Assembly (NCBI RefSeq): GCF_000732925.1
Contig: NZ_CP008953.1
Span: forward strand, 8,053,001 to 8,117,000
Source: Amycolatopsis japonica
Lineage (GTDB): Bacteria; Actinomycetota; Actinomycetes; Mycobacteriales; Pseudonocardiaceae
Direction of reading: 5' to 3'
DNA length: 64,000 bases
Both the position numbers and the translations under genes were made by a program. Of this stretch, positions 22,502 through 33,521 are shown one piece after another. The notes under the pieces are model-generated. The model was not told the origin of the DNA, did not search any database, and worked only from the letters and a program-made list of their open reading frames with translations. Numbering within the stretch: position 1 is the stretch's first letter; every line of letters begins with the position of its first letter.

Positions 22502-24016
22502 CTATCGGAAGCGACGACGGCGCGCGGCTGCCGCCGTCACCATGAGCAGGGCGATCACCAGGAACGCCAGTCCGCCGCCGACGGGCCACTGATCGTCAGC
22601 GGTCCCGCCGCCACCGGCCTCGACGGCACCGGCGGGCACCGGGTATCCGGCGTCGACGTGCTCGCCGGAGGCGCCGTGGAGGGACGCTTCCGCCGAACCG
22701 CTGTGCGCTCCGGCCGCGTGGGAAACGAGACCGCTCCCCACCATGACCACTCCCTGACCGGCACCCACGGTGCCGTGCCCGGAGCCACCGGTCTGGTGAC
22801 CGGTCGTGCCGCCGGTTCCGCCGCCGGACGGCGGACCCGGGTGGGTTCCGGGGTCACCATGCGGGTCGCCGGTGCCCGGTACCGGCATCGGAGCCGGTGC
22901 CGGAACGGGTACCGGTGCCGGGCCGGCGGGGGCGAGGTAAGCCGTGCCGGTGGCGCCGGCCTGCTCACCGTTCGCCGTCGTGCCGGTGACCGTGACCGGT
23001 GCCGCGGTGGTGTCCGCGGACGGCGTGAACGTTCCCGTGCACACGGTGCTTTCCTTGGCGGCCAGAGTGCTGTCACCGCAGGTCAAGGCACCATTGGGAG
23101 TGGTGCTCTCGACGTTGCTGACCGTGCCGGTGCCGGAGTTCGTCACCGGCACGCTCACCGTCGCCGGCTGCCCGGCGGTGACCGGTACCGCGTTGCCCGG
23201 CGATCCGGCGTCAGTGCCGTTGACCGTGGGAGTGCCCATGGTCAGGTCGCACGAACACCCGGTGTCGCTGCCGGTACCCGGTGCGGGTGCCGGGCTGACG
23301 GCCGGCGCGAGGTAGGCGGTGCCGGTGGTGCCGGCCTGCTCACCGTTCGCCGTCGTGCCGGTGACCGTGACCGGTGCCGCGGTGGTGTCCGCGGTCGGCG
23401 TGAACGGCCCGGTGCACACGGTGCTTTCACTGGCGGTCAGCGTGCTGTCGTAACAGGTCATCGCACCGTCGGCGGTGGTGCCGCTGACGTTGCCGACCGT
23501 GCCGGTGCCGGTGTTCGTCACCGGCACTGTCACCGTCGCCGGTTGGCCGGCGGTGACCGGTACGGCGTTGTCCGACGATCCGGCGTCGGTGCCGTTGACC
23601 GTGGGCGTGCCCATGGTCAGATCGCACGAACACCCGGTGTCCGCCGGCGTCGACGTGGTCGTGGCGGTGGTGTCGGCGCCGGCCGTGCTTTCGCCCGCGG
23701 CGTCGGCCGATGTCGCCGCTACCGGGGTCGGCAGCGGCTCGACCGCCGGCAACGTCGTGACGTCACTGGCGGCTCCGCTGTCCGACGACGCGGTCGAGGC
23801 GGTGCCGGTCGTTGTCGCCTGCCGCGGCTGCACGAGCCCCGACACCAGCGATGTCACGGTGTTCAGCGGGCTGGTGCCCGCGGTCGTCTCGGTCATTTGG
23901 TTACCGGGTTCAGGAGGATCGGTGCCCTCCTCGGCGTGGGCCACACCCACGCCGAGGAGCATCAAGCCACCTGCGAGCAACCCGGCCTGAAGGGACCGTT
24001 TTACCCAGGTACGCAT
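22502..24016 (-). CDS. Exported surface protein with two tandem 125-residue Ig-like repeats
   Basis: 504 residues from ATG 24016 (GGAAAGG). A signal peptide (RSLQAGLLAGGLMLLGVGVAHA) is followed by a Thr/Ser-rich region. Two nearly identical domains start at TGCSCDLTMGTPTVNGTDAG and end at GTAYLAPA, each with a C-S-C pair plus two further Cys. A Pro/Gly/His linker precedes a C-terminal membrane helix (GGLAFLVIALLMVTAAAA) and RRRRFR tail. That end has the architecture of a cell-wall sorting signal but no LPxTG; AGYPVPAG precedes it at a distance. The domains look like the DUF11/CARDB-type beta folds of bacterial surface proteins. Next gene is sortase F. Confidence 0.85.
   Translation of the reverse strand: MRTWVKRSLQAGLLAGGLMLLGVGVAHAEEGTDPPEPGNQMTETTAGTSPLNTVTSLVSGLVQPRQATTTGTASTASSDSGAASDVTTLPAVEPLPTPVAATSADAAGESTAGADTTATTTSTPADTGCSCDLTMGTPTVNGTDAGSSDNAVPVTAGQPATVTVPVTNTGTGTVGNVSGTTADGAMTCYDSTLTASESTVCTGPFTPTADTTAAPVTVTGTTANGEQAGTTGTAYLAPAVSPAPAPGTGSDTGCSCDLTMGTPTVNGTDAGSPGNAVPVTAGQPATVSVPVTNSGTGTVSNVESTTPNGALTCGDSTLAAKESTVCTGTFTPSADTTAAPVTVTGTTANGEQAGATGTAYLAPAGPAPVPVPAPAPMPVPGTGDPHGDPGTHPGPPSGGGTGGTTGHQTGGSGHGTVGAGQGVVMVGSGLVSHAAGAHSGSAEASLHGASGEHVDAGYPVPAGAVEAGGGGTADDQWPVGGGLAFLVIALLMVTAAAARRRRFR
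22935..23637. repeat. Tandem direct repeat, period 375 bp
   Basis: Two copies (about 22935-23262 and 23310-23637) are offset by exactly 375 bases and differ at few positions, many of them synonymous or conservative. They encode the duplicated 125-residue domain of the surface protein. The near-identity suggests recent duplication or gene conversion. Confidence 0.85.
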
Positions 24017-24073
24017 GGGAAACCTTTCCAAGTTCTGCTGAGTTGATCAGTGCTCTCGGCGGTGTCCGGTCTG

Positions 24074-26623
24074 TCAGTGGGTTCCGGTGCCGGTGGCGGA
24101 CGATTGCGGCTGGTGGCCCCCGGTCGACATGGCCGGGTCGCAGGTGCACACACCGGTGGTGGTGTAGCTCTGCGAGAAACCGACGGTCGAGGTGTTGCCG
24201 GAAGCGTCCTTACCGGTGAAGGTCGCCTTCACCGCTTTGGCACCGGGACTCGCGGTGAACGTGATCGTGCACTGAGTGCTGGCACCCGGCGCGAGCGTCG
24301 TCCCGTTGCAGGTGACCCGGCCGTTCTGCGAGGTGCCTCGCAGGTTGGCGATCGGCGCGGTGCCGGTGTTGGTCATCTGCACCTTGACGGTGGACGTGCT
24401 GCCGGCGGGCACGGTCGCGGTCGAGTTCGAGCCGACCACGGCGCCGTTGACCGAAGGCTTGCCGGTGATCGACAGCTTGCCCGCACCCGCTTGCGTACCG
24501 GTGTAGAAGATCCGGCAGGCCTTGCTCTGCTGCGTGCCGTTCGGACCCGACACGGTGAAGTTGAACTGCGCGGTGTTCGAGCCCGGCCGCGCGGTCGTGG
24601 TGACCGTGCAGCGGGCCGTGCTGCCCGGCGCCAGCTGGGCCGAGCCGCAGTTCAGCTTGCCGAGCGAGGTGTTGCCACCCAGCCCGGACACCGGGACGGT
24701 GCCGTTGTTGGTCACCGGGATCGTGATGGTGACCGGGCTGCCCGACGGAACGTTCGGACCGGGGGCGCTGCCCGCGGCCTTCCCGTTCACCAGCGGGGTA
24801 CCGATGGAGATGCTCGCCGACGGCTGCGGCGTCGGGTGCGGCTGCGGGACCGGAACCGGCTGCGGCGTCGGAACCGGAACCGGAGTCGGCTTCGGCGTCG
24901 GCTGCGGGACCGGCTGTGGTTTCGGGGTCGAGCCCGGAACCACGTTGCCCAGCAGACCGGTCACCGGCGAGAGAATCCCGCCGACACCCGGCTGCCCGGC
25001 GCCGGGCAGACCCGGCAGGCTCGGCAGACCAGGCAGCCCCGGGAGCGGCGTGCCAGGAGCCGGGGTACCGGGCATGTCAGGAGCAGGCTTGCCCACATAA
25101 CGGATCGTCATCTCCGTGCTGACGGTCGAGCCGTTCGGCTTGGTGCCGGTGATCGTCAGCTTCGCGCTCTGCGAACCCGGCTTCGCCGGGGCCGTGAACG
25201 TGTAGGTGACGGTGCCGCCCGGCGCGACCGAGGTCGCGGACGGGGTGACGGTGCCGCCGGGGAACGAACCGCTCAGGTTGGTGAGCGTCTCGGTGCCGGT
25301 GTTCGTGAAGGTGACCGAACCCGAGACCGGCGAACCGGCCGGGATGGTCGGACCCTCGCCCGAGATCGGCGTGCCGCCGATGGCCGGAACGCCCGGTCGC
25401 AGCGGAGACGACCCCGGGGTGCCCGGTTTGGTGGGCGAACCGCCGAGAACGCCGCCCAAGGCAGGACCGACGAGCGGCAAGCTCCCGGTCGCCGTGTCAC
25501 CACCCGAGCCGGGCAGGCCCGGCATGCCGAGCGACTCGAACGTCTTGATGTTGTCGGTGACCTTCAGGACGTCCAGGACCGCGGCCGGGTCGCCGCTGCT
25601 CACCTTTTCGAACGCGGTCTGCCACAGCAGGCGCATGGCGTCGAAGTTGTTGCCCGCGAAGGACAAGTACTCATCCGGGGTGAACACCGTGTCGGGGCCG
25701 AGCCGGTTCATGATCTCGGCGACCTGGAGGGTGTTGTAGAGGTAGTCCGGTGCCAGGACCCTCGCCGGGTCGGGAACGCTCGGCATCCCCTTCTGGACGA
25801 AGTTGACCACCTTCTCCGGCGTCGGCAGCCGGGACATGTCGACGGCCATGGTCTTGGTGTCGATGGGCAGCCCCATGCCGCCGCATCCCGTCGCCATCGT
25901 GAGGTAGTCGGTGCCGTGGCCCCGCACATGCGAGGGGTTGAAGATCGGGATCCAGCCCAGCGGTCCGCCGTACGCGTCGATGACCGGCATATGCGAGTTG
26001 CCGATCGCACCGCTGGCCATGGACAGGATCAGGTTCTTGTACGCCGGGTCCGTGTGGTAGGTCAGGGCGTGCGAGTTGCTGCCCAGCAGCGGGATCCCGT
26101 CCTCGTTCTTCCACATGTGCTGCAGGAAGAAGTCGCACGCGTCGCCGCCGCCCTCATGGGTGGTGTCCCCGGTCGAGTGGCCGCCGGACTGATTCGGGTC
26201 GACGGACGTCTGCTTCGTCTCGCCGCCGAACAGGCCGCCGGTGAAGACGCCACCGCTGAGCACGTCGCCGCTGAGGAACTTGCCGACGGTCGGGATCTGC
26301 GCTGTCGGGAGGTCCCCCGTGGGGACCGGGCTGGAGGTGCCGCTCGTTCCGGAAGCACTCACCGACGAGCCGGGCTGAGAGCTCGTGAGCAGTGAGGTGG
26401 TGTCCGTTCCGGAAAGGCCGAGGCCGTCGAGGCCCGGCAAGGAAGCAGCGGCGGTGTTCGTGACCAGTCCGACGATCGCGAAGGTCGCGGTGAGCGATAT
26501 CGCCGCCCCGCGCAGTACGCGGTTCGATCGGCGGGAGAACGGATTTGCCGGGGAAAGGCCGATTGGGGCCCGTCCGCCGGGGACATCGGCGCGATGGCGC
26601 CGAGTCCGACGTGTGATTTTCAT
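24074..26623 (-). CDS. Large exported surface protein with Ig-like repeats and Pro-rich linker
   Basis: 849 residues from ATG 26623 (GGAGCG). The N-terminus is basic, then a membrane/signal segment (AAISLTATFAIVGLVTNTAAA). Residues about 100-350 form a unique domain (DACDFFLQHMWKNEDGIPLL, with Cys and His-rich patches). Next come a Gly/Pro region and three DUF11-like beta domains, the first ending TIRYVGKPAPD. Between them is a Pro-Gln/Thr repeat linker of about 40 residues (PKPQPVPQPTPKPTPVPVP). The protein ends in CTCDPAMSTGGHQPQ without membrane anchor. It shares the domain type and C-x-C motif of the next gene product, so the two probably assemble at the cell surface. Specific function unknown. 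Confidence 0.85.
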   Translation of the reverse strand: MKITRRTRRHRADVPGGRAPIGLSPANPFSRRSNRVLRGAAISLTATFAIVGLVTNTAAASLPGLDGLGLSGTDTTSLLTSSQPGSSVSASGTSGTSSPVPTGDLPTAQIPTVGKFLSGDVLSGGVFTGGLFGGETKQTSVDPNQSGGHSTGDTTHEGGGDACDFFLQHMWKNEDGIPLLGSNSHALTYHTDPAYKNLILSMASGAIGNSHMPVIDAYGGPLGWIPIFNPSHVRGHGTDYLTMATGCGGMGLPIDTKTMAVDMSRLPTPEKVVNFVQKGMPSVPDPARVLAPDYLYNTLQVAEIMNRLGPDTVFTPDEYLSFAGNNFDAMRLLWQTAFEKVSSGDPAAVLDVLKVTDNIKTFESLGMPGLPGSGGDTATGSLPLVGPALGGVLGGSPTKPGTPGSSPLRPGVPAIGGTPISGEGPTIPAGSPVSGSVTFTNTGTETLTNLSGSFPGGTVTPSATSVAPGGTVTYTFTAPAKPGSQSAKLTITGTKPNGSTVSTEMTIRYVGKPAPDMPGTPAPGTPLPGLPGLPSLPGLPGAGQPGVGGILSPVTGLLGNVVPGSTPKPQPVPQPTPKPTPVPVPTPQPVPVPQPHPTPQPSASISIGTPLVNGKAAGSAPGPNVPSGSPVTITIPVTNNGTVPVSGLGGNTSLGKLNCGSAQLAPGSTARCTVTTTARPGSNTAQFNFTVSGPNGTQQSKACRIFYTGTQAGAGKLSITGKPSVNGAVVGSNSTATVPAGSTSTVKVQMTNTGTAPIANLRGTSQNGRVTCNGTTLAPGASTQCTITFTASPGAKAVKATFTGKDASGNTSTVGFSQSYTTTGVCTCDPAMSTGGHQPQSSATGTGTH

Positions 26624-26863
26624 TTTCAACGCTCCAGTTCATGAGCGCCTGCCGATAAAATCGGCATGGCGGTTGACGTGTCTGCTGAGAAAAGGGGTTT
26701 GTTCACCGACAGCCCTGGACACCGAACCGTTTGATGGAGGTAGTGGCAGCGGGAGCTACAGACTGGCGATTTCAGCCCATGAGTTCGCGAGCCTGCCGTC
26801 GAGTTGCACCTCGGCGGTCCTGCTGTCGCTACCGATCAAAGAATTCACTTCGTGGCCGACACG

Positions 26864-27901: not shown

Positions 27902-28296
27902 CGCACTCCACCATTTCCGGCTTACTCGAAGGTTTGCCCCAACAGCAGACAGTAAGGACCCGTCAGGCAATAGGGAACTGCCACTTACGGGACCCGCGGC
28001 CGCCACTCCTTACAGTCTCCCCCGCCGCGAATGAACCACTCTCCGTCGGAGCCGTAACGCGGAAAATTCGACCTTATGACCACGATCGGGTGAATCGAAA
28101 TAGTGGCGGTCAACTGCTTGTCGAAATCCCAGCCCAGGGTCGAGGGTCACAGTTCGATAACTCGACATCGGGTGCCGGAAATTTTTGATCATCCCGCGTA
28201 AGAGAATGTGCGAACCGGCGTTCCACGGACATGGAGGCCGTGTTCGATCCCCGAAACGAACGCGATCGCGATCGATCCTCGGAAAGGACGGCCGCG
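27902..28296. other. Divergent intergenic region, AT-richer
   Basis: 395 bases between the leftward surface-protein locus and the rightward LuxR-type regulator. The stretch 28170-28200 is unusually AT-rich (GGAAATTTTTGATCATCC). I see no open frame with a ribosome site and no hairpin of note. An in-frame ATG at 28231 for the next gene is possible but lacks a ribosome site. Confidence 0.5.
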
Positions 28297-28842
28297 GTGG
28301 CGATAGTGGTCTACGCCGACCGGCCGAGTACGCGCCACGGGATCGCACGGTCCCTGCGGGGCGCGCCGGGGATCGGGCGCGTCGAATGCGCCGCGACCGC
28401 CGAGGAACTCGTCCGCGGCTACACGCGCGCGCCCGCCGACGTGGTGCTCGTCGCGGTCCGGCCGGACGAGCCGACCGGTCCCGCCGCCGCGGCGGCGTTA
28501 CTGTCGGTCGCCCCCGACGCCGCGGTGATCATGTTCGGGTCGTTCGGCACGGCCGCCGGGGCGCTGGTGCCCGGTATCGGCGGATTCCTCCGGAAGTACG
28601 ACGGCCTGTACCCCGAACCGGCCGCCGCGCCACCCGACGCCGAACGCCTTCGCCTGTCCGAACGTGAACTCCAGATCCTCTGGGGTATGGCACAGGGGAA
28701 ACGGAACATCCAGATCGGCGCCGATCTCGCGCTCTCCGAAGACAGCGTCAAGACCCACTGCAAACGAATCTTCCGCAAGCTGGGCGTCCACGATCGCGCC
28801 GAAGCGGTCGCCATCGGCTTCCGCGCCGGTTTCCTTTCCTGA
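28297..28842 (+). CDS. LuxR-type transcriptional regulator with degenerate receiver
   Basis: 181 residues from GTG 28297 (GGAAAGGAC ribosome site); an ATG at 28231 would add 22 residues. The N-terminal about 115 residues have receiver-like alternation (AIVVYADRPSTRHGIARSLR, then DVVLVAVRPDEP). The acidic pocket is reduced to one Asp and the usual phospho-acceptor position reads VAVR, so phosphorylation is unlikely. The C-terminal LuxR HTH is intact (LSERELQILWGMAQGKRNIQIG, ALSEDSVKTHCKRIFRKLG). Such orphan atypical regulators are usual near actinomycete secondary-metabolism or cell-surface genes. It stands divergent to the sortase locus. Confidence 0.85.
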   Translation: MAIVVYADRPSTRHGIARSLRGAPGIGRVECAATAEELVRGYTRAPADVVLVAVRPDEPTGPAAAAALLSVAPDAAVIMFGSFGTAAGALVPGIGGFLRKYDGLYPEPAAAPPDAERLRLSERELQILWGMAQGKRNIQIGADLALSEDSVKTHCKRIFRKLGVHDRAEAVAIGFRAGFLS

Positions 28843-29692: not shown

Positions 29693-30066
29693 AGCAGATT
29701 CCCTTCTCGCGCTGTCACAACGGGACACAGCCCGTGAAAGTGTCACAGAATGCGGCGCTGTTGTGACCCCTGTGCGCCAAAACTGCCGCTTCCCGGTCAG
29801 CGCGCCACCCCGGTCGCCGGGCTCGGCCGGGACCCGCCCCGGCGCGGCGAGCAGCCACCTCCCGCACCGCCTATCGCACGATCGAATATGCGGGCGCCGG
29901 CCGGGAAATGGCCACAATGGACGGTGAACCGAAATACCGGGTAGCACTTCTGAAGAAGACACCCCTATGCGGCGGGTCCATTATTGGAGGACCGCAGCCA
30001 CCGGCCGCAGGAAATGCGACAAGAGGATCCGGCTGAGGTGAGACGACAAAAAGGAGGTGACGGAAG
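29693..30066. other. Divergent intergenic region before the peptide/SagB unit
   Basis: 374 bases that must hold promoters for both the leftward secreted EEP gene and the rightward small-peptide gene. The part next to the peptide gene is less GC-rich than average. A 24-codon frame beginning at 29967 (MRRVHYWRT...) is present but has only a weak ribosome site. No convincing -35/-10 pair was found. The Shine-Dalgarno AAGGAGGTGA of the peptide gene sits at 30051-30060. Confidence 0.5.
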
Positions 30067-30141
30067 ATGAAGATCACGGTCAAGGTGCAGCGCACCGAAC
30101 TCCCGGTCAAGAAGATGCTGCTGTGTTCGCACACCATCTGA
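30067..30141 (+). CDS. Candidate RiPP precursor peptide, 24 residues
   Basis: The frame starts MKITVKVQ, contains the basic/hydrophobic stretch RTELPVKK and ends MLLCSHTI. A Shine-Dalgarno identical to the full anti-16S complement (AAGGAGGTGA) sits 6 bases ahead, predicting heavy translation. Directly after it come two hairpins, then a SagB-type flavin dehydrogenase and an MFS exporter on the same strand. A tiny highly translated gene, attenuating hairpins, a modifying enzyme and an exporter is the standard layout of a ribosomally made, modified peptide. The single Cys next to Ser, His and Thr at the C-terminus would be the modifiable core. I do not recognise the peptide. It could instead be a leader peptide, but it has no regulatory codon run. 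Confidence 0.65.
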   Translation: MKITVKVQRTELPVKKMLLCSHTI

Positions 30142-30142
30142 T

Positions 30143-30181
30143 CGACTGAGCCGCCGATGGCCTATATCGGCGGCGCAGTCG
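30143..30181 (+). terminator. Hairpin directly after the peptide gene
   Basis: CGACTG and GCCGCCGAT (30143-30158) pair with ATCGGCGGC and CAGTCG (30166-30181), 15 base pairs interrupted by one A/G mismatch, with a 7-base loop. It begins one base after the stop codon and could protect the mRNA 3' end or attenuate downstream genes. Confidence 0.7.
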
Positions 30182-30256
30182 AGTCGTGGCGGCCCATCGG
30201 GTCGGCTTGAAATCAGGCCGATCGTCTCCAGCGATGACCGCCGGATTCGATGAGAC

Positions 30257-30296
30257 CACTGCGGAGGGGTCGACTTCCTTCGACCCCTCCGCAGTG
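30257..30296 (+). terminator. Very stable hairpin between peptide gene and SagB gene
   Basis: A perfect 17-base-pair stem (30257-30273 with 30280-30296) has a six-base loop CTTCCT. No U run follows; the next gene starts at 30329. As a partial terminator it would let the peptide mRNA greatly outnumber the enzyme mRNA, as in many RiPP operons. Confidence 0.75.
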
Positions 30297-30328
30297 TACC
30301 TGTGTTGTGCCCGAGGAGGAACAGGACG

Positions 30329-31504
30329 ATGGAGCTGCGACGCGCCCGCTCCCTGGTGGGGTATTGGGTGAACGGGGACCTCGTCCTCGACGATTATCTG
30401 GCGGTCACCCCCGAAGACGGCGAGAAGCAGGGCATCGCCGTCGACGGCACGGCCGTGGAGCTGCTCAACCGCTTCGAGGAGTGGACCGATCCCGAGTCTG
30501 TGACCAGGGATTTCAACGGCTACGACCCCGCCTCCGTCGCGGAGGCCGTCGAGGCGCTCGCCGGTGCCGGCCTCCTGCGGACCAAGGAAGAGGCCGCCGA
30601 CGAAGACCTCATGCTCGACAAATGGAGCTCATGGGGACCGTCGGCGCAGTTCTTCCACTTCGGCACCAAGGACACCGCGTACATCACGCATGAACGCGCC
30701 GCCAGCGACGCCGAGGTAGCGGCATGGCGCGTGGCCGCCCGTACCGAAATCGAGGAAAGCGGCCCGCCGCCCGAGCCCTTCACCCGGCGCCCCGACGCGA
30801 AGCGCATCAGGCTGACACGGGCCTTCCTTCCGCTGCAGCGAGATTTCGGCGACGTGTTGCTTTCCCGCCGGACGCATCGTCATTTCACGACGGACGCGGT
30901 TCCGCTGCGCAGCTTTTCCACCATTCTGCATTACACGTTCGCGCCGATGCATTTCTTCGACGCCGGTGTGCTGGGCACGCTGACTCTGCGGACCAGCCCC
31001 TGTGGAGGCGCGAGGCACGAGAGCGAATGCTACATCGTCGTCCGCAACGTCGAATCCATTCCGCCCGGGCTTTACCGGTACTCGCAGGACGACCACAGTC
31101 TCGAAGTGGTCTCGCAGGAATTCGGTGACGAGGAACTGAACCGGCTCGTCTTCGGGCAGCGGATGATCACCACCGCGGGCTTCGTCGTCTTCCTCACCCT
31201 GAACGTCCACCGCGCGATGTACAAATACCGCAACGCGCGGATGCTCCGAACGGTGCTGCTCGACACCGGGCACCTCGCCCAGACCTTCGCCCTGTGCACC
31301 ACCGCGGTCGGCCTGGGGCCGTCACAGAACGACGCCTTCCGCGACACCGAGCTGGAAGCCGCGCTCGGCATCGACGGCGCGGGCGAGACGGCGCTGTACG
31401 TCCTCGGCGCCGGCGTCCCGGCTCGCCGGGCCGACGGCATGCCGGTGAGTGACACCCCGGAAGAAGTCGAGCGCCGGATCACCGAGGGCGCCAAGAACCA
31501 GTAG
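30329..31504 (+). CDS. SagB/ThcOx-type FMN-dependent dehydrogenase
   Basis: 391 residues from ATG 30329 (GAGGAGG, nine bases). The N-terminal about 100 residues form a winged-helix-like domain (RRARSLVGYWVNGDLVLDDY, LLNRFEEWTDPESVTRD) as in SagB-type proteins. The nitroreductase fold follows. FMN-binding Arg cluster FGDVLLSRRTHRHF, then RTSPCGGARHESECYIVVRN with GLYRYS, and NARMLRTVLLDTGHLAQTF with the late GLGPSQNDAF. Characterised members oxidise azolines in peptides to thiazoles or oxazoles, usually with a YcaO cyclodehydratase, which is absent here. The gene follows the candidate precursor and precedes an exporter by 16 bases, so it likely modifies that peptide. Confidence 0.9.
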   Translation: MELRRARSLVGYWVNGDLVLDDYLAVTPEDGEKQGIAVDGTAVELLNRFEEWTDPESVTRDFNGYDPASVAEAVEALAGAGLLRTKEEAADEDLMLDKWSSWGPSAQFFHFGTKDTAYITHERAASDAEVAAWRVAARTEIEESGPPPEPFTRRPDAKRIRLTRAFLPLQRDFGDVLLSRRTHRHFTTDAVPLRSFSTILHYTFAPMHFFDAGVLGTLTLRTSPCGGARHESECYIVVRNVESIPPGLYRYSQDDHSLEVVSQEFGDEELNRLVFGQRMITTAGFVVFLTLNVHRAMYKYRNARMLRTVLLDTGHLAQTFALCTTAVGLGPSQNDAFRDTELEAALGIDGAGETALYVLGAGVPARRADGMPVSDTPEEVERRITEGAKNQ

Positions 31505-31520
31505 AGGAGGAGGGCCGAGG

Positions 31521-32783
31521 GTGTCGGTCAAACCGGCGGACGGCGAGACGGTACGCGGCGACGAGTCGCTGCGTACCGTTCAGCGGCGGGTGATCCGCTC
31601 GCTCCTGCTCGTCCAAGCCGTCTTCTCGCTGATGTTCGCGATGGCGGGGCCGCTGATCTCGTTGATCGCCGAGCGGCTGACCGGCTCGGCGGGCAAGGCC
31701 GGGCTCGCGCAGGCGATGATCTACTGCGGGGCGGTGCTCTTCAGTGTTCCGCTGGCCTCGCTGTCGATGGACCGCGGACGGCGGACGGGGATCGCGGCGG
31801 GCTATCTGACGGGTGCGGCGGGCGCCGCGGCCGTCGTCCTCGGTGCGGTGTTCTCGACCTACGTCCTGTTGCTGGTCGGCGCCGTCGCCTTGGGGGCGGC
31901 ACTGGCCGCGGGCGCGCAAGCCCGCTACGCGGCGACGGATCTCGCCTCGGCGGACCGGCTGGGCAGGTCGATGGGCGTGCTCTCGTGGAGCTCCATCGCC
32001 GCCGCCGTCCTGGGCCCGGCCTTGACCGGTGCCTTCGCCGGGATCGGCCGGGGAGTCCTGCCGGAATTCTCGGGACCGTATGTCGCCATCGCGGCCGGGC
32101 TCGCCATCAGCGGGATGCTGGTCTTCGTCACGCTCCGGCCGGATCCGCTGCTGCTGGCCAGATCCCTCGACCGCGAGACGAAGGCGCGGCCGAAATTCCG
32201 CACCGCGCTGGCCGCGGTCGCCGGTGATCCGCCCGTGCGGCGCGCCGTCCTCTCGCTGATGATCGTGCACGCCACGATGATCTCGCTGATGAACATGGCC
32301 TCCATCCACCTGGACCACGGCGCGGCGACCCTCGCGACGATCGGTGTCGTGATCAGCGTGCACACCGCGGCGATGTTCCTTCCGGGGCCGCTGGTCGGTT
32401 ACCTGAGCGACCGGATCGGCGCGCACCGGATGCTGCTCATCGGGCTCGCCCTGGAGGTGGCCGCCGCGATCACACTCGCCGCCACTCCCGCGCACGATCC
32501 CTTCCTGGTCGGCCTCGGGCTCCTCCTGCTCGGCGCGGGGTGGTCCGCCGGCTACCTCTCCGGCTCGGTGCTGCTCACAGCGTCCACCCGGAGCGGCATC
32601 CGGACGCTGGTCCAGGGCGCCGCCGACTTCCTCGTGCTCCTCACCTCCGCCGGCGGCGCACTGCTCGCCGGCGTCATGGTCGCCTTGTGGGGCTACGGCG
32701 GGCTTTCCCTTTTCTGGGGTGCCGTGGTGGCGATCGTTTTCGTCCGGATCGCCACCGCCGCCCGACGCACATCACCGGAATAG
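31521..32783 (+). CDS. MFS transporter, probable peptide/product exporter
   Basis: 420 residues from GTG 31521 (GAGGAGGAGGG). Twelve predicted membrane helices; the cytoplasmic loop motif after helix 2 reads SLSMDRGRRTG (MFS motif A variant) and a second one GYLSDRIGAHR. The central loop contains DRETKARPKF. It lies 16 bases downstream of the SagB gene, so it is co-translated and would export the modified peptide or give self-resistance. Drug-efflux-type MFS exporters are common in small natural-product clusters. Confidence 0.88.
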   Translation: MSVKPADGETVRGDESLRTVQRRVIRSLLLVQAVFSLMFAMAGPLISLIAERLTGSAGKAGLAQAMIYCGAVLFSVPLASLSMDRGRRTGIAAGYLTGAAGAAAVVLGAVFSTYVLLLVGAVALGAALAAGAQARYAATDLASADRLGRSMGVLSWSSIAAAVLGPALTGAFAGIGRGVLPEFSGPYVAIAAGLAISGMLVFVTLRPDPLLLARSLDRETKARPKFRTALAAVAGDPPVRRAVLSLMIVHATMISLMNMASIHLDHGAATLATIGVVISVHTAAMFLPGPLVGYLSDRIGAHRMLLIGLALEVAAAITLAATPAHDPFLVGLGLLLLGAGWSAGYLSGSVLLTASTRSGIRTLVQGAADFLVLLTSAGGALLAGVMVALWGYGGLSLFWGAVVAIVFVRIATAARRTSPE

Positions 32784-32852: not shown

Positions 32853-33521
32853 ATGAACCGGGAAGATGATCACGCTTTCTCGTCTGCCAGGCTCTATGGC
32901 GTGACGACATCCGCGTGGGACGAAGTATCCACAGCAGTCGCGGCAGCGCCCTATCCGGTGGCCGTGCTCGCCCCGGACGGCGAACGCGCTGCCCACTGTC
33001 TGCGCGAATTGGGCATCACGACTACCTCGTGGTTGGGAGCCGTTGTCGGCCACACTGGAGGGTTACTGGTGGACCACGGGTGGCTGCGCATTCTCGGCAG
33101 CGGCGCGGAGGCATTGCCCGACATCCTCGACCGCGCCGAACCTGCCTCAGGTGCCTTGCCAGTCGCCTACGACGTGTTGGGCGGTATGTACGTCTGGGCG
33201 ACCAACCCTGCGGGGCGGCCGACCATCCGCTACTTCGGACCAGACGTCCTCGATTGGGAGGACCTTGAGCTGGGGTACGCCGAATGGTTGCACGCTGTGC
33301 TCGTCGGTTCGCTCGACAGGTTTTACGGAACCCTGCGCTGGCCCGGCTGGCAAAATGACGTCAGTGCGGTTGCAGCCGACCAAGGCATTCACACCTTCCC
33401 GCCGCCTTGGAGCAAAGAAGGCAAAGACCTCTCGACGGTGTCGCGGGCAGTCGTCGCACTGTCGGAGTTGGTATCGCTCCACCAGGACGCCGCACGGCAG
33501 TTGAGCGGACAGGACTCCTGA
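32853..33521 (+). CDS. DUF2625 family protein
   Basis: 222 residues; an alternative GTG at 32901 would remove 16. The family signature is clear: ELGITTTSWLGAVVGHTGGLLVDHGWLRILGSG, here around residues 50-85. VWATNPAGRPTIRYFGPDVLDWEDLELGY and YAEWLHAVLVGSLDRFYGTLRWPGW follow. The family resembles the SMI1/KNR4-like cytoplasmic fold that is common among immunity proteins of polymorphic toxins, but biochemical function is unknown. Neither start has a good ribosome site. The gene is flanked by imperfect 26-base direct repeats (32847-32872 and 33577-33603), suggesting it came as a mobile cassette. Confidence 0.7.
   Translation: MNREDDHAFSSARLYGVTTSAWDEVSTAVAAAPYPVAVLAPDGERAAHCLRELGITTTSWLGAVVGHTGGLLVDHGWLRILGSGAEALPDILDRAEPASGALPVAYDVLGGMYVWATNPAGRPTIRYFGPDVLDWEDLELGYAEWLHAVLVGSLDRFYGTLRWPGWQNDVSAVAADQGIHTFPPPWSKEGKDLSTVSRAVVALSELVSLHQDAARQLSGQDS

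Follow-up and report, generated by a model that had tools for sequence, protein, structure and literature searches.

A gene for a 24-residue peptide was found upstream of genes for a SagB-type flavin dehydrogenase and a predicted major facilitator superfamily (MFS) exporter in the 9.05-Mb genome of Amycolatopsis japonica, within a 64,000-nucleotide stretch of contig NZ_CP008953.1 (positions 8,053,001 to 8,117,000; here called the window, with positions counted from its first nucleotide). We regard these genes as a minimal operon for a ribosomally synthesized and posttranslationally modified peptide (RiPP) in which the SagB-type flavoenzyme alone would oxidize the C-terminal core of the peptide, most likely to α,β-dehydroamino acids, and we give this reading a probability of roughly 60%. 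The peptide and the dehydrogenase stay together across homologous loci, and the pair also occurs in genomes in which no YcaO cyclodehydratase was found.

Conservation of the peptide beside SagB

The peptide gene (MKITVKVQRTELPVKKMLLCSHTI; positions 30067 to 30141, forward strand, as are all features of the unit) starts with ATG at 30067, ends with its stop codon at 30141, and is preceded by a Shine-Dalgarno (SD) sequence with full complementarity (AAAGGAGGTGA, 30050 to 30060). Its product has a K/R/V-rich N-terminal leader and a C-terminal core around KMLLCSHTI. By folding, one hairpin lies immediately 3' of the stop codon (30142 to 30182) and a second, with a 17-bp stem and no T-run, at 30257 to 30296; the genes for the 391-amino-acid FMN-dependent dehydrogenase (30329 to 31504) and the 420-amino-acid predicted MFS exporter (Pfam MFS_1; 31521 to 32783) follow. 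A sequence-only reading had described this row of a 24-residue peptide gene with full SD, two hairpins, SagB, and MFS genes, and the sequence and profile searches bear it out directly. It had also seen no adjacent partner, which agrees with the YcaO places lying far from the window and with the absence of a lanthionine synthetase or radical SAM protein among the five frames scanned with Pfam and NCBIfam (peptide, SagB, MFS, 28231 to 28839, and 32853 to 33518); no genome-wide search was made for either.

The dehydrogenase scores 105.1 bits against the NCBIfam SagB family model TIGR03605 (cut-off, 78.4) and so is of the SagB type found in thiazole/oxazole-modified microcins (TOMMs); its only Pfam domain is nitroreductase. 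All 28 sequences of the family alignment share K299-Y300 and the GH..QT core without exception, and the Lys-Tyr pair aligns with that of the cyanobactin oxidase CyaGox. In azoline dehydrogenases this pair has a catalytic role.

Homologues were drawn from 80 genomes of the genus, 390 of the family, 394 of the class, and named-species genomes scanned with alignment A1 (80 loci kept). The resulting 110 loci (30 comprising the window and chosen stretches, and the 80 from the named-species scan) were reduced to 84, nearly all actinobacterial, by dropping SagB proteins shorter than 340 amino acids and rows identical over a 130-amino-acid SagB stretch; close relatives remain (L088 to L090), and L175, at a contig edge and with a doubtful frame, is kept in the denominator. 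A strict scan (350 nucleotides upstream, ATG start, 15 to 45 amino acids, SD of at least 5) found a short frame upstream of SagB in 63 of 83 loci. Regions upstream of other genes in these loci gave such a frame in 14 of 585 cases, the reverse strand gave 0 of 83, and shuffled sequence gave 49 of 1,660; a chance frame was rejected on these comparisons. Under relaxed, partly hand-picked rules that allowed GTG starts and weaker SD sequences, a same-strand frame of 18 to 34 amino acids lies upstream of SagB in 73 of 84 loci, and in one more (L035) a 46-amino-acid frame with an SD lies about 90 nucleotides downstream. Eight weak-SD peptides were named by hand, all upstream except that of L035. Together these loci yield 67 distinct peptides. 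The refuting outcome named beforehand, a peptide not conserved beside SagB homologues, was thus not observed, and these same loci show the generic RiPP pattern of a conserved leader and a variable core next to a modifying enzyme. The C terminus MLLCSHTI as such was not conserved among relatives.

The upstream peptides have 18 to 34 residues, with a conserved leader and a tail of roughly 5 to 12 residues that is hypervariable between clades. Leaders are mostly basic, e.g., M[K/R]xIxxxxxxVxR, and the first 14 residues are net acidic in 15 of 67 distinct peptides (a set that counts L035 by its last 20 residues and leaves out L160, whose frame is doubtful). Tails are MLLCSHTI, MLGCKAS, and MLACKAS in the window branch; LLSNHPA, LLNNHG, and TLTNHG in the NH group; LLHHPST and AHHPSL in group C; and IIIQFSPS and IIVEFRAA in the Nocardiopsis/Streptomonospora type. 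Others include IHYQR and many aromatic tails, such as HWWWYAE and RIWNWSW. Among the last nine residues, His, Trp, Phe, or Tyr is present in 64 of the 67 peptides and Cys in only 3, and 9 have no Ser, Thr, or Cys; the window's own tail, unlike those of most relatives, holds all three of the latter. Relative to neighboring proteins, the largest tail enrichments, in a set with five peptides added by hand (L035, L102, L110, L122, and L140), are for Asn (4.2-fold), Trp (3.9-fold), Lys (3.5-fold), and His (3.3-fold).

Patterns of codon-position identity suggest that the peptide is translated and selected. Seven loci (Nocardia, Streptosporangiaceae, and Allonocardiopsis) retain the C-terminal 14 residues RRKKTRSRLLNNH[G/A], with identities of 0.95, 0.98, and 0.82 at the three codon positions and 0.37 over the next 45 nucleotides; for four SNH loci the values are 0.90, 0.93, and 0.76, with 0.36 in the following DNA.

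The window genome and that of A. anabasis carry more than one such unit. A second SagB of the window genome (L041, G000:C1:2383019-2384044; about 35% identical) is preceded by a different, 40-amino-acid peptide (MHDEDDDEFLYELEAEYKAQSTWGGFEPPPHGGPPFRSRR) and, before that unit, by a large regulator-like gene; peptides of this type (39 to 40 amino acids; L008 to L026) occur at 18 loci of the genus, with codon-position identities of 0.96, 0.97, and 0.83 over 16 of them. A. anabasis (G004) has four different peptide-SagB units (L035, L036, L038, and L039), with tails LLSNHFA, WHWRWEYK, LLHHPTT, and LLDHPSG.

Peptide types cluster on an IQ-TREE phylogeny of the 84 SagB proteins: their labels, author-defined patterns in which "B" is the residual class, require 15 changes compared with 43.9 after shuffling, and none of 200 shuffles was as low. 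The window enzyme groups with those of S. chryseus and S. albidochromogenes (95/81) and then S. albireticuli (100/99); the next step out is the four SNH loci (99/97), three of them from the window's own genus. An enzyme closer still (64% identical) was subsequently found in G1298, from the order of Streptosporangium, within a unit of peptide (MKVSVKVRQTPLKAKKMLGCKAS), SagB, and MFS genes, the last 61.6% identical. The triplet and a KML-x-C motif are kept in all four loci of this branch (window, S. chryseus, S. albidochromogenes, and G1298), and the window's MFS protein is of the same subfamily as those 3' of SagB in the other three. Because the SagB proteins of S. chryseus and S. albidochromogenes are 99% identical, the four loci represent three lineages.

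YcaO genes and the proposed oxidation

A whole-genome search placed YcaO at 6.45 and 2.01 Mb in the window genome and nowhere near the window at 8.05 to 8.12 Mb. The gene that follows the YcaO near position 6452897 (L042, G000:C1) encodes a 489-amino-acid SagB-family protein (114.6 bits; cut-off, 78.4), and the two are probably an ordinary azole RiPP cluster, apparently self-contained; an AraC-type regulator was also noted there by eye. Among 61 genomes carrying the unit, YcaO was not found in 15 (15 of 57 and then 0 of 4) and was present in 46 (42 of 57 and 4 of 4); E. coli, the control of the 57-genome search, has a YcaO as well. Those with no match are S. chryseus and S. albidochromogenes in the window branch; G211, G080, and G082 in the NH group (the latter two single-contig); G128, G133, G134, G640, and G697 with aromatic tails; G771 (Nocardiopsis type); G805, G808, and G809 (group C); and G793. 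Nine of the 15 are stated to be 98 to 100% complete, and KML-x-C, NH, aromatic, group C, and Nocardiopsis-type peptides are all represented; every genome in which the IHxQR type was observed has a YcaO. The family therefore does not need a cyclodehydratase or azoline synthesis, and cyclodehydration lies outside its shared chemistry. The sequence-only reading had allowed for a partner elsewhere in the genome; two YcaO genes do exist there, but the family needs none.

Apart from the dehydrogenase, the marks of a TOMM are absent: no YcaO is adjacent, and at family level the core is not rich in Cys, Ser, and Thr, as the tail counts above indicate. The earlier proposal that the enzyme acts on Cys, Ser, His, and Thr was accordingly too azole centered for a family in which His and aromatic residues are nearly universal and Cys is rare, although Cys is conserved in the four loci of the window branch. 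What stands of that interpretation is a RiPP-like pair of peptide and dehydrogenase with no adjacent cyclodehydratase.

In the mechanism that we propose, the short peptide would be the precursor, with its N-terminal 14 to 16 residues (basic and V/I rich in the window) as leader and its last 8 to 9 as core. The leader may be held by an RRE (RiPP recognition element)-like N terminus of the SagB protein. This flavoenzyme would be the only maturase, with no prior YcaO cyclodehydration, and would remove two electrons and two protons from the core, a predicted change of -2 Da per event. The most likely reaction would be α,β-desaturation of a side chain, giving dehydro-Leu or dehydro-His in the window and dehydro-Trp, -Phe, -Tyr, or -His in aromatic-tailed relatives. 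An unlinked protease would cleave the leader, and the MFS protein would presumably export the product. According to a 2025 preprint (PMC12636437), the PflD nitroreductase domain, which works without YcaO, makes Z-dehydrophenylalanine in a Pseudomonas RiPP, and YcaO-free nitroreductases are called rare and functionally uncharacterized and may make other dehydroamino acids. Dehydroamino acids are known to form at aromatic residues, His, and Leu, all of them frequent in the tails here. Given this and the PflD precedent, a leader-guided two-electron oxidation of the core is favored.

Objections and alternative explanations

Several observations weigh against this reading. Ten of the 84 loci have no recognizable peptide, one of which (L111) starts 98 nucleotides from a contig edge. 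Pooled whole-group dN/dS values give a weak purifying signal or none (0.64 for the group B leader, 0.74 for NH, 1.25 for group C, and 1.43 for group B tails); these values are not clean, because tails of unequal length were aligned from the end, and the codon-position test on NH tails was used instead. Asn and Lys are enriched in the tails as much as His and Trp, the tails of S. chryseus and G1298 (MLACKAS and MLGCKAS) hold no aromatic residue or His, and the site of oxidation is a guess because no residue is common to all cores. Most carrying genomes (46 of 61) do have some YcaO, no completeness is given for the six YcaO-free genomes reached via named loci, and the two in the window branch are a single lineage. 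PosD, the homologue of PflD and the other of the two nitroreductase fusions from Pseudomonas, showed no activity in Escherichia coli (PMC12636437).

The assignment of the N terminus is a further objection. A one-to-one hhalign comparison of the roughly 100 N-terminal residues of the SagB proteins (30329 to 30634 in the window), possibly RRE/PqqD-like and proposed to bind the leader, with 15 PqqD hits gave a weak match (probability, 49%; E = 1.7e-4; PqqD columns 8 to 67 of 67). A PDB profile search of the same region returned no RRE; it matched designed helical repeats (E = 5e-4) and, at E = 0.019 or weaker, winged-helix regulators. The authors of RRE-Finder noted RRE-like domains on cyanobactin, linear azol(in)e-containing peptide (LAP), and thiopeptide dehydrogenases and regarded them as possibly vestigial (PMC7470986).

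The operon could be the same minimal RiPP system with a different oxidation, i.e., an oxidative cross-link, a C-terminal oxidative decarboxylation, or a Cys-centered reaction of the thioether or thioaldehyde type, which we think unlikely. The other tails are rich in Trp and His, which are residues used in oxidative cross-links, and the window branch keeps its Cys at KML-x-C, so that for this branch Cys-centered oxidation or a later thioether is the main alternative. Against such reactions, the cores do not all share any residue pair, and the only characterized YcaO-free domain of this type that was found desaturates Phe (PMC12636437).

The short frame might instead be a regulatory leader peptide whose translation, together with the hairpins, controls SagB expression. 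A short frame with a strong SD just upstream of SagB would suit this role, as would the fold of the 187-nucleotide gap between the two genes (minimum free energy, -111.1 kcal/mol, compared with a dinucleotide-shuffle mean of -73.8; z = -8.2); in relatives, z is below -2 in 50 of 70 homologous gaps (30 mononucleotide shuffles each). Hairpins 3' of the precursor gene are usual in RiPP operons, however. Hairpin 2 is probably an attenuator or an mRNA processing or stability element between the precursor and enzyme genes. A known RNA element in the gap was rejected, since Rfam returned only subthreshold microRNA-type hairpin matches. Regulation is an improbable explanation, given that the tails, although hypervariable from clade to clade, resemble one another inside a clade and follow the enzyme tree, and that tailoring and transport genes go by peptide type. 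The L035 peptide cannot serve as a SagB leader because its gene lies downstream, and L151 and L155 have tandem peptide copies. In these two loci, two precursor copies precede SagB (MDIVIIEDREVVAHHPSL twice in L151; the second copy in L155 is MDIVIIEDSEALAHHQGL), as in RiPP precursor duplication.

Production of a thiazoline at Cys by a YcaO encoded elsewhere, with the window SagB oxidizing it in trans to a thiazole as in a LAP pathway split over the genome, was rejected for the family and is very improbable for the window, since the two genomic YcaO genes, the SagB family score, the CyaGox-like Lys-Tyr pair, the conserved Cys of the branch, and the YcaO genes of 46 carrying genomes are set against 15 carrying genomes with no YcaO match (two of them, one lineage, in the window branch), a genomic YcaO with its own SagB-family neighbor, and relatives whose cores mostly lack Cys or, in 9 of 67 peptides, any Ser, Thr, or Cys in the last nine residues.

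Neighboring genes, possible metal binding, and known systems

Nine gene types were surveyed around the loci by tblastn (E value, 1e-12) within about 6 kb, and group-specific tailoring and transport genes accompany the peptide type. Of the 16 NH loci, 12 have a Peripla_BP_2 binding protein, 11 a FecCD permease, 11 an ABC ATPase, 9 an MFS protein, and 5 a ferric-reductase-like membrane protein. Outside NH, the binding protein was found at 1 of 12 group C loci, 1 of 10 peptide-less loci (L111, which is NH by its place in the tree), and 0 of 39 aromatic or other loci. Group C has an MFS protein at 12 of 12 loci and a JmjC_2 oxygenase at 10 of 12. A methyltransferase occurs at both group E loci and at 7 of the 39 others, three of these seven with Nocardiopsis/Streptomonospora-type peptides; 30 of the 39 have none of the nine gene types and consist of peptide and dehydrogenase only, as far as tested. 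An ATP-grasp gene was rejected as part of IHxQR-type loci, as it lies on the same strand beside SagB only in L115 and on the opposite strand in L116, L123, and L128. In the window itself, two long low-complexity Pro/Thr/Gly-rich frames, probably secreted, lie on the reverse strand at 22502 to 26629, the first with repeated CDLTMGTPTVNGTDAG-like segments.

Metal scavenging is possible because the NH sister branch carries a FecBCD-type importer, and a metal-scavenging ancestor is plausible in view of these importer genes and the place in the tree. In NH the exported product may be recaptured by that importer, which would suggest metal binding. Speculatively, cleavage behind LL would leave an amino-terminal copper- and nickel-binding (ATCUN) motif, x-x-His, which fits the NH tails and the window (CSH after MLL) but not MLACKAS or MLGCKAS. 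Near NH units we also observed ECF sigma factor genes (L074, L076, L103, and L108), a zinc-finger-like protein (L034 and L076; Pfam zf-HC2 below cut-off), and a His-containing membrane protein with no Pfam match (L103, L105, and L108), which could hint at metal-responsive control.

Other findings count against a metal role. The importer, and with it the dedicated uptake expected of a ribosomal metallophore, is absent at the window locus, and the sole binding-protein match in the window genome at an E value of 1e-15 is 40% identical and located elsewhere. The best-ranked NCBIfam models for the importer describe putative parts of an F420-0 transporter (143.4 of 392 and 267 of 437 bits); siderophore and B12 models rank lower, and all matches are below cut-off. 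A scan of 19 promoter regions with consensus patterns showed no consistent enrichment of iron, zinc, copper, or nickel-type boxes; of 76 region-motif tests, two exceeded every one of the 60 shuffles (zinc in L104 and nickel type in L098).

The closest published counterparts are PflD and PosD, SagB/nitroreductase-type enzymes that act on a ribosomal peptide without YcaO, as is proposed for the window enzyme; PflD does so by a -2 Da desaturation. Os1351 of the Os17 cluster is annotated as a "SagB-type dehydrogenase" (PMC7726476), and from gene order we infer that it is PosD. Those enzymes are fused to an MNIO domain and accompanied by a HEXXH oxygenase, a GNAT protein, and an NHLP-type precursor (85 amino acids, Os1348), whereas here a lone enzyme accompanies a precursor of 18 to 34 amino acids: Pfam finds no MNIO fusion in the window enzyme, and no HEXXH partner was present among the five scanned frames, beyond which no search was made.

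By E value, the best NCBIfam relative of the window enzyme is TIGR04511 (SagB_rel_DH_2), named a putative peptide maturation dehydrogenase, but its 144.9 bits fall below the cut-off of 240. TIGR04509 (mod_pep_NH_fam) was rejected as the same precursor family: the model has 87 positions, the frame that it matches near the L174 dehydrogenase is about 100 amino acids long, and its best match in the window genome reaches 15.2 of 34 bits, at an unrelated position. In L174 and L176 (Alkalisalibacterium), a fragment of a SagB-like dehydrogenase lies close to a TIGR04509 precursor; this represents another dehydrogenase-centered peptide system, outside the Actinobacteria. LAP and other TOMM systems (SagBCD and McbBCD) and cyanobactin oxidases (ThcOx and CyaGox) share the FMN dehydrogenase domain and the aligned Lys-Tyr pair, but the window family has neither their cyclodehydratase nor their Cys/Ser/Thr-rich core. 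The albonoursin cyclic dipeptide oxidase is a member of the nitroreductase family. It too introduces dehydroamino acids (PMC10880069), although into cyclodipeptides and not ribosomal precursors.

No published description of these short precursors or lone SagB units was found in the open-access literature, subscription journals being mostly outside its scope. The family is apparently widespread and undescribed; the kind of system, a RiPP, is known, the type of chemistry has one preprint precedent, and the architecture appears to be new. As a tentative and rather doubtful extension, the family may be a new actinobacterial RiPP class whose precursors are very short and whose sole class-defining maturase would be a stand-alone SagB fused to an RRE, desaturating the hypervariable C-terminal tails or otherwise oxidizing them by two electrons, and the NH and KML-x-C branches would be MFS-exported ribosomal metallophores, recaptured through FecBCD in NH.

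The usual view of SagB dehydrogenases is that they finish azoles and depend on YcaO. In the large and diverse family described here, SagB is paired with a tiny precursor, in many cases without any further gene in common, and the pairing extends to genomes in which no YcaO was found. This bears on the role of YcaO-free nitroreductases in RiPP clusters and on whether the RRE-like domains of dehydrogenases bind leaders. Genes of 18 to 34 amino acids are easily overlooked in annotation.

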